64,000 nucleotides of DNA from Actinoallomurus soli (GTDB taxonomy: Bacteria; Actinomycetota; Actinomycetes; Streptosporangiales; Streptosporangiaceae), in contig NZ_JAMXMV010000001.1 of the NCBI RefSeq assembly GCF_024055715.1, positions 1,116,001 through 1,180,000 of the forward strand, given 5' to 3'. The position numbers and the translations under genes are program-made. Below are positions 32,612 to 39,912 of this stretch, in pieces (the first letter of the stretch is position 1; each line of letters starts with the position of its first letter). The notes beneath the pieces are model-generated. The model was not told the origin of the DNA and did no database searches. It saw only the letters and a program-made list of their open reading frames with translations.

Positions 32612-33040
32612 ATGGGAAGGCTGCGCGGGTTCCTGGAACGATTCAGGCCGACCGGGGTTCCCGGCGCCGCCGCGCGTGCGGGCGTGCCCGCCGACCGGGC
32701 CGCCGAAGACCGGGCCGAGCTGGCCGGTGTGTTCGCGGCCATGGAACCGGTGCAGGCGGAGTGCCGGGAGATCCGCGAGGCCGCCGAGCGCGCGGCACAC
32801 GACGTTCGGCGCCGCGCCGACGAGGAGGCCACGGCCCTGCTCGGCGCCGCGAGGGCGCGAGCACAGACCGAGCGGGCGGCCGCGTCCGTGGCGGCGGGAC
32901 GATCCGCCGCCGCCGAGCGCAGAGTGATCGTCGCCGACGCCGAGCGGCGCGCGGCGACGATCCGGGAGCGCGCCGACGAGCGGCTGCCCGCGCTGGTGAC
33001 CCGGGCCGTCGAGATGGTCAAGGCGATGACCGGGGAATGA
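32612..33040 (+). CDS. V/A-type ATPase peripheral-stalk (G/H-like) subunit
   Basis: 142 residues dominated by a coiled coil rich in Ala/Glu/Arg (about 45-120, DEEATALLGAARARAQ and ADAERRAATIRERADE), ending in LVTRAVEMVKAMTGE like archaeal-type H/G stalk subunits. It probably pairs with subunit E as the peripheral stalk. GAGG lies 8 nt before ATG 32612. First gene of an eight-gene coupled operon: G/H-C-I-K-E-A-B-D. Confidence 0.65.
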   Translation: MGRLRGFLERFRPTGVPGAAARAGVPADRAAEDRAELAGVFAAMEPVQAECREIREAAERAAHDVRRRADEEATALLGAARARAQTERAAASVAAGRSAAAERRVIVADAERRAATIRERADERLPALVTRAVEMVKAMTGE

Positions 33041-34002
33041 GCGCAGCCTGGGTCGCGGGGAGCGTCCGGGCCCGGGCGCTGGTGGCCCGGCGGCGGATGC
33101 CGGGCATCGCGCGCCGCATCGCCGGCCGGCCGAACCTGGGCGACGCCCTCCGGCTGCTGGCCGCGACGCCGTACGGCCACGACGTGCGCGAGGGGCAGGA
33201 CGTCCTCGCGGCGCAGCACGCGGTGGCGGCCACCCTGCTGTGGCATCTGCGGGTTCTGGCGGGGTGGCTGCCGCCCCGGGGCGCGGCGCTCCTGCGGGTG
33301 CTGGCCGGCTGGTTCGAGATCGCCGACGTCGAGGCGCGTCTCCTCGGCGGGCCCGCCTTCGACATGGGTGCGCTGGCGACCGTCCGGCCCGGCCTCCGGA
33401 GCGCGGCCGACCTGCGCGCCGCGCTCGCCGCCTCGCCGTGGGGCGATCCGGGCGGGAGCGATGACCGGGCGGTCCGGCTGGGCATGCGGATCTCCTGGGC
33501 CCGGCGGGTCGCGGCCGTGTCGGTGGACGCGCGGCCATGGGCGGCCGGTGCCCTCGCGCTGCTCGTGGCCCGCGAACGGTTCCTGACCGGCGAGACCGTG
33601 CCGGTGCCGCCGTCCGACGGGGCACTGCCGGTGTCGCCGGCGGACAGGGCCGCGCCGGTATCGCCGTCCGACGGGGCACTGCCGGTGTCGCCGGCGGGTC
33701 TGCTCGTGAGGGACGCCGGGCGGGCCGGCGGCCTGGCCGAACTGTCGCGCCGGCTGCCCGGCGACGCGGCCTGGGCACTGCAGGGCGTCGCCGGTGAGCA
33801 CGACCTCTGGGCGGCGGAGGCGCGATGGTGGACCCGGGTCGAGCGGGACGCCGCGGACCTGCTGGCGGGCGCTGGTCACGGCCCAGAGCCGGTGCTCGGC
33901 GCGGTCGCCCTCCTGGCGGCGGACGCCCGGCGGGTGCGCGCCGCGCTGGAACTGGCCGCGCGCGGCGGCTCCGTGGAGGCGTTCGATGCCTTCGCTGGGT
34001 GA
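33037..34002 (+). CDS. ntpC: V/A-type ATPase subunit C-like
   Basis: 321 residues, helical, Ala/Arg/Leu-rich. GWFEIADVEARLLGGPAFD resembles the repeated three-helix segments of subunit C/d, which caps the c-ring and takes the central shaft; length and operon position agree, but similarity is diffuse. A Pro/Ser/Ala-rich insert (about 188-222) arises from a 54-bp DNA repeat. ATGA overlap with the preceding gene and 17-bp overlap with subunit I. Confidence 0.6.
   Translation: MSAAWVAGSVRARALVARRRMPGIARRIAGRPNLGDALRLLAATPYGHDVREGQDVLAAQHAVAATLLWHLRVLAGWLPPRGAALLRVLAGWFEIADVEARLLGGPAFDMGALATVRPGLRSAADLRAALAASPWGDPGGSDDRAVRLGMRISWARRVAAVSVDARPWAAGALALLVARERFLTGETVPVPPSDGALPVSPADRAAPVSPSDGALPVSPAGLLVRDAGRAGGLAELSRRLPGDAAWALQGVAGEHDLWAAEARWWTRVERDAADLLAGAGHGPEPVLGAVALLAADARRVRAALELAARGGSVEAFDAFAG
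33608..33697. repeat. 54-bp-period direct repeat within subunit C gene
   Basis: A 36-bp exact repeat (33608-33643 and 33662-33697) separated by 18 bp, encoding two copies of SDGALPVSPA. The period is a multiple of three, so the frame is kept. Confidence 0.8.
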
Positions 34003-37962: not shown

Positions 37963-39304
37963 CCTGGAGTACACCGACATCGCGGCGCTGCACGGGCCGC
38001 TCATCGTCGTACGGCGGACGTCCGGCGTCGGCTGGGACGAGTTCGCCCGGATCCGGTCGGCCACCGGCGAGGAGCGCCACGGCCTGGTCCTGGAGGTCCA
38101 CGAGGACATCGCGCTGGTCCAGGTGCTGGAGGGCACCGCCGCGATGACGACCGGCGGCACCCGCGTGACGTTCACCGGCGGCCCGCTGCGGATCCCGGTC
38201 GGCGACGGCTGGCTCGGCCGGGTCTGCGACGGGCGCGGGGAGCCCCGGGACGGCGGCCCGCCCGTGTTCGGGACCACGACCGCGGCCGTCTCCGGGTCTC
38301 CGCTGAACCCGACCCGCCGGCTGCCTCCGGCCGACCCCGTGCTCACAGGGGTGTCGGCGATCGACGCGCTGACCACCCTGGTCCGGGGACAGAAGATCGC
38401 GATCTTCTCCTCCGCCGGGCTGCCGCACCTCGAACTGGCCGCCCAGATCGGCGCGCAGGCGAACGCGGGCGGCGAGCCGTTCAGCGTCGTGTTCGCCGCG
38501 ATGGGCCTCACCCACGCCGACGCCGCGACCGTACGTGACGCGCTGGAGGAGCGCTCGGCCGCCGGAGAACTCGCCCTGCTGCTCAACCTGGCCGACGACC
38601 CCGTCATCGAACGGGTGCTCACGCCGCGCCTGGCGCTGACCATCGCCGAGCACCTGGCCTTCACCGGCGGGCGGCACGTCCTGGTCGTCATGGCGGACAT
38701 GCTCGGCTACTGCGAGGCGCTGCGCGAGGTCTCGGTGGCACGCGGTGAGATCCCGGCCCGGCGGGCGTACCCCGGATACCTCTACAGCGATCTCGCCTCG
38801 CTGTACGAGCGCTGCGGCCGCGTCCGCGGCATGCCGGGGTCGGTGACCGTCGTGCCGGTGCTGACCATGCCCGCGCGCGACATGACCCATCCGGTCCCCG
38901 ACCTCACCGGGTACATCACCGAAGGGCAGATCGTCCTCAGCCCGGACGTCCCGGTCCGGCCGCCGGTCGACGCGCTGTCGTCCCTGTCCCGGATGATGCG
39001 CGCGGGCGTCACCCCGGCGCACCTCGACCTCGCCGCGCAGTGCCTCGCCGCGCTCGCCCGCGCCCGGCAGGCACGTGAGCTCGCCGAACTGGTCGGAGAG
39101 ACCGCTCTCGGCGACACCGACCGGCGTCATCTCGACTTCGAACGGGCGTTCCTCGACCACGTCGTGGCGCAGCGCGCGGACGAGTGCCGCACCCTGGCCG
39201 AGACCGTCGACCGCGTCTGGCGGGCGCTCGCCGTGCTGCCGCGCCGCGAACTGACGATGATCGCGGGGGACGTCCTCGACGCGCGTCATCGGGAGGCCGT
39301 GTGA
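37952..39304 (+). CDS. ntpB: V/A-type ATPase regulatory subunit B
   Basis: 450 residues. LEYTDIAALHGPLIVV, SAIDALTTLVRGQKIAIFSSAGLPH (degenerate P-loop, as expected for B), VVMADMLGYCEALREVSVARGEIPARRAYPGYLYSDLASLYERCGR, and TVVPVLTMPARDMTHPVPDLTGYITEGQI are family hallmarks. GTG 37952 follows GGAGGGGG and overlaps the A stop by 11 bp. It completes the A3B3 head. Confidence 0.95.
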   Translation: MRPDLEYTDIAALHGPLIVVRRTSGVGWDEFARIRSATGEERHGLVLEVHEDIALVQVLEGTAAMTTGGTRVTFTGGPLRIPVGDGWLGRVCDGRGEPRDGGPPVFGTTTAAVSGSPLNPTRRLPPADPVLTGVSAIDALTTLVRGQKIAIFSSAGLPHLELAAQIGAQANAGGEPFSVVFAAMGLTHADAATVRDALEERSAAGELALLLNLADDPVIERVLTPRLALTIAEHLAFTGGRHVLVVMADMLGYCEALREVSVARGEIPARRAYPGYLYSDLASLYERCGRVRGMPGSVTVVPVLTMPARDMTHPVPDLTGYITEGQIVLSPDVPVRPPVDALSSLSRMMRAGVTPAHLDLAAQCLAALARARQARELAELVGETALGDTDRRHLDFERAFLDHVVAQRADECRTLAETVDRVWRALAVLPRRELTMIAGDVLDARHREAV

Positions 39305-39912
39305 CGTCCTCGTACCGGATCCCTCCCGGCCGGGCCGGACGGCTCTGGCTGCGCCGGCGCATCGACATCGCCGAACGCGGTCACGACCTGCTGGAACGGA
39401 AGCTCCGCATCCTTCACCGGGAGCACGAACGGCTCGCGCTGCGGGCCGACCGGACGGAGGCGGAGTGGACGACGGCATGCCGGCGGGCCGACACCTGGCT
39501 GCTGCGCGCGGCCCTGGCCGGCGGCCGTCGATCGCTGTGCCCGGCGCCGGGCCTCGCGGACGTCACCATCACCTGGAGACAGGCGATGGGCACCCGCTAC
39601 CCGGAGCAGGCGGTTTGCGCCCTTCCCGCGTTCCCGGACACGCCGCCCTGCTCGGCCGCGCTCGTCGAAGCCCGCGACGCGTGCCGTGCCGCGGTGGCGG
39701 CCGCCGCCCGCTACGCGGCCGCCCGGGCGGCCGAGCGCGTCGTGGCCGGTGAGATCACCGCCACGCGCCGGCGGGTCCGCGCCCTGGAACGGCGCTGGAT
39801 ACCACGGCTGACCACCGGGTTGAGCGCCGTGGAACTGGCACTGGACGAAGGGGAACGCATCGACCGGGCGCGTCTCCTGCGGGCGTCCGCTCAGCGCACG
39901 GAGGCGTACTGA
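39301..39912 (+). CDS. ntpD: V/A-type ATPase subunit D (central shaft)
   Basis: 203 residues with the two long helices of subunit D: LRRRIDIAERGHDLLERKLR with ILHREHERL, and VRALERRWIPRLTTGLSAVE with LDEGERIDRARL. It is the rotor shaft inside the A3B3 head. GTG start shares GTGA with the B stop. No subunit F gene follows, although F normally completes the shaft. Its 3' end overlaps the convergent small secreted protein gene by 22 bp. Confidence 0.88.
   Translation: MTSSYRIPPGRAGRLWLRRRIDIAERGHDLLERKLRILHREHERLALRADRTEAEWTTACRRADTWLLRAALAGGRRSLCPAPGLADVTITWRQAMGTRYPEQAVCALPAFPDTPPCSAALVEARDACRAAVAAAARYAAARAAERVVAGEITATRRRVRALERRWIPRLTTGLSAVELALDEGERIDRARLLRASAQRTEAY

Follow-up and report, generated by a model that had tools for sequence, protein, structure and literature searches.

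The window analysed here, a stretch of 64 kb from the 9.42-Mb draft genome of Actinoallomurus soli (G000:C11:1116001-1180000), carries an operon for a putative V/A-type rotary ATPase. The operon is real and lacks subunit F, whose gene was found elsewhere in the same genome at C38:9643-9855 and encodes 71 amino acids (aa). With a probability of about 0.8, the operon in the window (copy 1) would receive F in trans from a collapsed operon at this other place (copy 2). Four points are established at the level of sequence: the homology of F, its location between K and E in relatives, the lack of F at this location in copy 1, and traces of G and K in several members of the genus. The original prediction had proposed a minimal enzyme without F and had named a canonical F in another gene as the finding that would speak against it. 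No F gene was found in the window, but the genome contains one on C38, and the minimal enzyme gives way to one whose F is encoded in trans.

Subunit F is encoded outside the operon

A search of the genome with PF01990 gave a match at C38:9652-9810 with 29.2 bits (cut-off 23.5). At E-values up to 10, this place and a weak one below the cut-off on C59 were the only matches, and nothing was found on the contig of the window. The clade alignment A1, which contains the C38 protein, covered all of its 71 positions (3.7e-33). When used as a single phmmer query, the C38 protein retrieved the operon F of 17 out of 20 fetched relatives with values from 2e-12 to 1e-22; it missed the remaining three, G152, G239 and G036, the contig of the last being cut. 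The four best matches of the clade F profile among solved sequences were V-type F (best E 0.0013), followed by a designed protein. When the model predicted for F of a relative (predicted local distance difference test score 95) was compared with known folds, V-type ATPase chains took ranks 1-17, the named ones being subunit F, with a best E of 0.0016 and no match at 0.001 or below. Both parts of the central rotor are thus encoded, D in the operon and F elsewhere in the genome.

In relatives, F has a fixed place. Named genomes were scanned and the best 80 of 229 stretches encoding a relative were used; of the 77 loci with K, E and A, 76 have F flanked by K and E (L125, L133 and L171 stood outside this count, K being lacking in the stretch). 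The sole exception is A. iriomotensis (G152), which belongs to the same genus. Of the 33 loci with G handles that comprise K, E and A, 31 have F, those without it being G152 and G239. In 25 of the 31 family genomes with subunit A, F shortly precedes A on one contig; in G055, A and F are both at contig ends, and in G036 and G171 the contig breaks off and the F matches are weak only. F lies elsewhere in the remaining three, namely the window genome, G152 and G239. The K-E junction of copy 1 reads TGAC-ATGGC in both pump-bearing members of the genus (G000 and G152) and is similar to the K-F junction of the solo F. It looks as if F was excised from copy 1 and its start codon now serves E.

G239, which groups with named Nonomuraea genomes, reads as a parallel case of a displaced F. 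Its operon (L076) has no F between K and E, and a solo F is found about 700 kb away on the same contig (L228 6273-6497, reverse-complement numbering). Just before this F stands the 3' end of its own K with 30/40 nucleotides (nt), compared to a shuffle maximum of 22 in 2000.

The genome search with its match on C38 speaks against the F-less enzyme as originally described. This reading, in which the V/A-ATPase is genuinely minimal and the solo F an unrelated leftover, would agree with the lack of F in the operons of both the window and A. iriomotensis. It is nevertheless very improbable. F was present in 29 of the 31 family genomes with A, and in the remaining two (G036 and G171) a contig end truncates the A locus; in addition, purifying selection acts on the solo F in the genus (see below).

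The solo F is conserved in the genus Actinoallomurus

The solo F was found in all eight genomes of the genus, which are drafts with a completeness of 87-99%. V-type A and D were each detected in only two of them. A HAD gene follows the solo F in every case, its match starting 70-105 nt past F in seven genomes and about 560 nt in G052; with this arrangement in all eight, contamination as the source of C38 is unlikely. In the family sample, 35 of 250 genomes have F, 29 of them together with A and six without, the latter all from this genus. In the class sample, which overlaps with that of the family, F was present in 13 of 394 genomes, all with A.

The pairwise ratio of nonsynonymous to synonymous divergence (omega) of the solo F ranged over 0.11-0.34 when 28 pairs were compared, and over 0.11-0.28 for the 15 pairs in which both genomes are pump-less. 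Neutrality was rejected in both tested pairs (G135-G052, P 1.5e-6; G176-G166, P 4e-4), provided that both lineages have been pump-less since their split. These values show purifying selection on the solo F in the genus at the level of codons, with small counts; they indicate constraint and are not proof of a pump-free role.

The solo F might have a job that is independent of the V-ATPase. One example would be a small Rossmann-like protein that partners another rotor or the HAD protein under oxygen limitation; in the two pump-bearing species, it may have both jobs. Six of the eight genomes keep F without V-type A or D, neutrality was rejected in two pairs among them, and the HAD gene always follows. 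On the other hand, the F of G166 lacks its own start codon, and outside the genus F without A occurred in none of the 213 family and none of the 379 class genomes lacking A. Such a job is possible, though less likely than not. The same degree of doubt applies to a combined view, in which the lone F, the residue of one of two operons with complementary decay, would be a free-standing protein of a dormancy regulon, independent of the V-ATPase in six species and a trans-supplied rotor subunit in two.

Copy 1 could also be an accessory element, lost and regained from strain to strain; F would then persist since loss of the pump is too recent, or its regain too frequent, for decay. In a tree of rpoB fragments from seven genus members (G176 gave no rpoB match), the pump-bearing G000 stands beside the pump-less G091 (98.1% identical in the fragment), followed by G115, while G152 stands apart. 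In A. iriomotensis, G of copy 1 is split over two reading frames (L105 6381-6778), as in a decaying operon; this may be a real frameshift or a sequencing error. Against this explanation, copy 1 and the solo F have diverged alike between G000 and G152, as vertical descent predicts. The synonymous divergence (dS) of seven subunits was 0.56-0.89 with omega of 0.23-0.49 (G was excluded due to its split in G152), compared to a dS of 0.65 and an omega of 0.30 for the solo F. The V-type A proteins of the two species are 77% identical in the best segment. An accessory copy 1 is a serious possibility, although it falls somewhat short of an even chance. With outgroups, the supports inside the genus were 43-82 and the root of the rpoB tree was unresolved; within this limit the tree suggests several losses of copy 1, regain being the alternative.

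Probable remnants of a second operon at the solo F locus

The solo F loci were compared with copy 1 of A. iriomotensis as reference. The 3' end of K was recognised before the solo F in G052 (33/40 nt), G135 (29/40) and G176 (25/40), with shuffle maxima of 22-23 of 1000. In G052, the sequence just before F reads SEGIATHGLLVGVLLLGKA followed by a stop, which is the end of subunit K, and the K profile matched with 2.8e-4. The box together with the start of G reached Smith-Waterman z values of 10-15 in G152, G135, G052, G176 and G166, 5.6 in G000 and G091 and 1.0 in G115. When the box part was omitted, z was 5-8 in G135, G052, G176 and G166 and at most 1.5 in the other four loci. The similarity to the window's own copy 1 was weaker, with z up to 7.5 with the box and at most 3.7 without it. 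G166 reads MPTLRDLLDRFHPDGPAGEPVPAGV, which resembles the G of relatives (e.g. MARLRDFLQRFRPAGVPGAAAPAGV), is in frame with F and gave a G-profile match of 5.8e-5. The simplest reading of these remnants is that the solo F locus represents a collapsed second operon with losses complementary to those of copy 1.

In G166, GCG takes the place of ATG at the solo F (L227 6718, reverse-complement numbering), which reads in frame from the G-like N-terminal remnant. A fusion protein of the G remnant and F is possible.

Several observations weigh against a collapsed twin that serves copy 1. No remnants of G and K could be recognised in the window genome itself, G091 and G115, so that the collapse is deduced from the remaining members of the genus, and no remnants of E, A, B or D were found after the solo F. 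The K test remained within the shuffles in five of the eight loci (G152 20, G166 19, G000 17, G115 16, G091 15). The start of G alone yielded z values of 3.0-5.6 in G135, G052, G176 and G166 and at most 1.8 in the other four. The G profile was significant in G166 only (0.087 or worse in the other members), and one of 900 shuffled controls reached 0.0053. A promoter-plus-F piece that has moved is an alternative origin of the locus. The box at the solo F in the window genome may serve a divergent universal stress protein (USP) gene. Finally, genomes in which no V-ATPase was detected keep the solo F as well, so that its persistence cannot be due to binding to copy 1 alone.

Proposed mechanism

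In the favoured reading, supply of F in trans, the operon would once have been present twice and the copies would have lost complementary parts, copy 1 only F and copy 2 nearly everything but F. In the window genome, copy 2 would now comprise F and the HAD gene behind a DosR-type box and little else. The solo F would still join D in the central rotor of copy 1; in Enterococcus hirae, the DF complex is the central axis rotating in A3B3, according to the accessible part of PMC3772951. The A-B hexamer would hydrolyse or make ATP and thereby drive the D-F shaft, with C as cap and the K ring beside I. A shortage of oxygen may induce both copy 1 and the solo F unit through a common DosR/OsdR-like regulator. 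The pump might then consume ATP to maintain the membrane potential or exploit what is left of a gradient, and the sequence favours neither.

The original prediction left open whether protons or sodium would be pumped. Subunit K has an N-terminal extension followed by one ion-binding hairpin with one Glu. The sodium ligands of K are a Gln in the first helix and a Thr or Ser after the Glu of the second. The K studied here, which contains CVGAGIA, does not have them, which disfavours sodium, and coupling of ATP to protons is therefore the likelier option.

Genes of the operon

The eight genes on the plus strand at 32612-39912 follow the order G-C-I-K-E-A-B-D, as predicted (there with G/H for the first gene), and are tightly coupled; six of the seven junctions overlap, and K and E are separated by one base (Table 1). 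The start codons of the eight genes were chosen by the author. A, B, D, I and K gave strong family matches and E a weak one (Pfam, NCBIfam), while G and E were named via clade profiles that match solved G and E chains. C was assigned through its relatives only: 17 of the 24 aligned C proteins of the clade matched PF01992 (E up to 0.1; best 7.4e-7), the window's own C gave no PF01992 match at E up to 0.1, and the profile of C retrieved no solved chain. The assignment as V/A-type is based on A and B, both over curated cut-offs, with I, K, D, E, G and C also accounted for. The motifs GGFGTGKT (P-loop) and GERGNE (GER) are present in A, and its catalytic motifs thus read as intact, as had been stated. 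The insert noted in C was confirmed, with 22 residues (33607-33672) that occur in none of the 23 other aligned sequences. It consists of near-repeats (PPSDGALPVSPADRAAPVSPSD). The F-type synthase that had been presumed is also encoded in this genome, with a complete set a-c-b-delta-alpha-gamma-beta-epsilon on contig C1.

Residues 89-428 of subunit I align to 279-637 of NF004430, and some 190-230 residues at the N-terminus of other bacterial I subunits are left unmatched. In the predicted model, no helix longer than 16 residues is found before residue 154. A fold search with this model placed V-type a/I chains on top, with template modelling scores to the query of 0.30-0.39 (22 matches, E up to 0.001). 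Given this poor superposition, the missing arms are claimed from the sequence alignment.

Table 1. Coordinates in the window of the operon genes, the boxes and adjacent genes
Feature	Position	Strand	Evidence
USP gene	30437-31648		
HAD-type hydrolase, divergent from operon	31668..32429	-	54% identity over 231 residues to the HAD after the solo F (C38)
Three DosR/OsdR-type palindromic boxes	32498-32511, 32521-32534, 32540-32553 (32498..32553)	+	14-mer scan
Subunit G/H (peripheral stalk), 142 aa	32612..33040	+	clade profile A5 vs Thermus G, 7.3e-9
Subunit C (rotor cap, d/AC39), 321 aa, 22-residue insert	33037..34002	+	relatives match PF01992
Subunit I (a), 448 aa, most of N-terminal arm region missing	33986..35332	+	PF01496, 7.4e-22
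Subunit K (c ring), 136 aa	35302..35712	+	PF00137, 4.2e-17, residues 73-132
Site where relatives have F; K stop, one base, E start (TGAC ATGGC)	35713..35718	+	
Subunit E (peripheral stalk), 192 aa	35714..36292	+	clade profile A6 vs solved E chain, 2.6e-7
Catalytic subunit A, 560 aa	36280..37962	+	NF003220, 3.7e-182, over cut-off
Subunit B, 450 aa	37952..39304	+	NF003235, 1.7e-161, over cut-off
Subunit D (rotor shaft), 203 aa	39301..39912	+	PF01813, 7.3e-27, over cut-off

Promoter boxes and genomic setting

DosR-type boxes had been predicted upstream of the operon, and they were found. In the 64-kb window, three 20-mers score at least 14/20 against the DosR consensus; two of them (32518 and 32537) are located upstream of the operon and the third at 6416. 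In a 14-mer scan, two sites with at most one mismatch to GGGMCNWWNGKCCC and one with two mismatches were detected there, whereas 0.03 sites (at most one mismatch) were expected by shuffling and none of 1000 shuffles gave two. The 14-mer pattern covers the DosR and the published OsdR consensus and was written after the first scan, before PMC5069765 was read; the loci scanned are the closest relatives. At most one mismatch being allowed, a site is present upstream in 27 of 69 loci (26 of the 68 named related loci and the window), compared to a shuffle mean of 1.1 and a maximum of 3 in 100, and 42 of the 69 upstream regions have none. The 20-mer DosR consensus was mostly not enriched upstream in relatives. 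At the solo F, boxes with at most one mismatch were found within 400 nt upstream in seven of the eight loci (9 sites vs 0.35 expected), and a USP gene is divergent from F in G000, G091, G115 and G052, where it may be the gene that the box controls. The enrichment of boxes is support for control of the DosR/OsdR type, not proof of it.

The neighbouring genes of the operon fit the theme of oxygen limitation. Apart from the USP gene, a group at 23345-26669 resembles the genes of a cytoplasmic NiFe hydrogenase; it encodes the large subunit of a NiFe hydrogenase, a small Oxidored_q6 subunit, an NAD-binding reductase and a protein with a cyclic-nucleotide-binding domain. A P-type cation ATPase lies downstream of the operon (40501-43299), and a rubrerythrin/ferritin-like gene (43307-44308) is located next to it on the opposite strand. 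Use of the operon during oxygen limitation, as originally suggested, is a reasonable assumption because of the boxes and these neighbours. A hydrogenase and a P-type ATPase are among the members of the DosR regulon. The main text, as far as accessible, of a paper on the DevR/DosR and OsdR regulons (PMC5069765) mentions neither "ATPase" nor "hydrogenase". The OsdR consensus is given there as AGGGCCGATCGGCCCT, and the boxes of the window fit this as well as the DosR consensus; the nearby USP genes are likewise shared with these regulons (PMC5069765, accessible part).

Distribution and comparison with known systems

The V/A-ATPase is no rarity among actinomycetes, and the view of it as unusual in an aerobic member of this group had to be given up. 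V-type A was found in 31 of 250 family genomes (13 of 68 genera) and in 15 of 394 class genomes, four of which are positives of the same family. Streptomyces, Nocardia, Arthrobacter, Microbispora and Nonomuraea are among the best 80 relatives. L086 (G464), from another family of the class, shows the V-type order D-I-K-A-B without a recognisable F of the clade type.

Subunit I had been called about one third shorter than normal. The shortness itself stands; as a peculiarity of this operon it does not, since I has 406-511 aa in all 69 loci measured, and decay is thereby ruled out as its cause. F has 68-109 aa in 76 loci, with at most 81 aa in 72 of them, whereas solved chains have 100-119 aa for F and full-length bacterial I has 649-672 aa. 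The small size of both subunits characterises the actinobacterial group as a whole and is not decay.

V-type ATPases of Actinobacteria are already in print (PMC7325909 and PMC5336288, accessible parts), and the unusual part is the location of F. Among the matches listed from the open-access literature, neither a displaced F nor regulation of this V-ATPase of the DosR type was found to be described. Two copies of the operon of a multi-subunit machine may decay complementarily, one subunit then coming from a distant locus, with remnants that are legible in some species. A rotor subunit that is kept where no motor was found is a natural case in which a possible second role of F becomes testable. 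Moreover, "missing subunit" calls from one operon call for a check of the whole genome.

The V/A-ATPases of Thermus thermophilus and Enterococcus hirae, which have been solved, share A, B, D, F, E, G, I and K with the enzyme described here by family or clade profile. I is shorter (448 vs 649-672 aa), and so is F (71 vs 100-115 aa in bacterial and archaeal solved chains). The Hakuba actinobacterium has a V-type set atpABCDEFIK (PMC7325909), and V-type ATPase genes are listed in a module table of Nocardia seriolae (PMC5336288); a displaced F is unmentioned in the accessible parts of both sources. Unlike the window genome, the Hakuba set includes F, has sodium-type K residues and occurs without an F-type ATPase, according to the same part of PMC7325909. 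A close counterpart is the actinobacterial operon G-C-I-K-F-E-A-B-D of Streptosporangium, Streptomyces, Nocardia, Arthrobacter and others (L106-L184), with the same gene order, the short I and the short F. In contrast to this operon, F has left its place in the window genome and is encoded on another contig.

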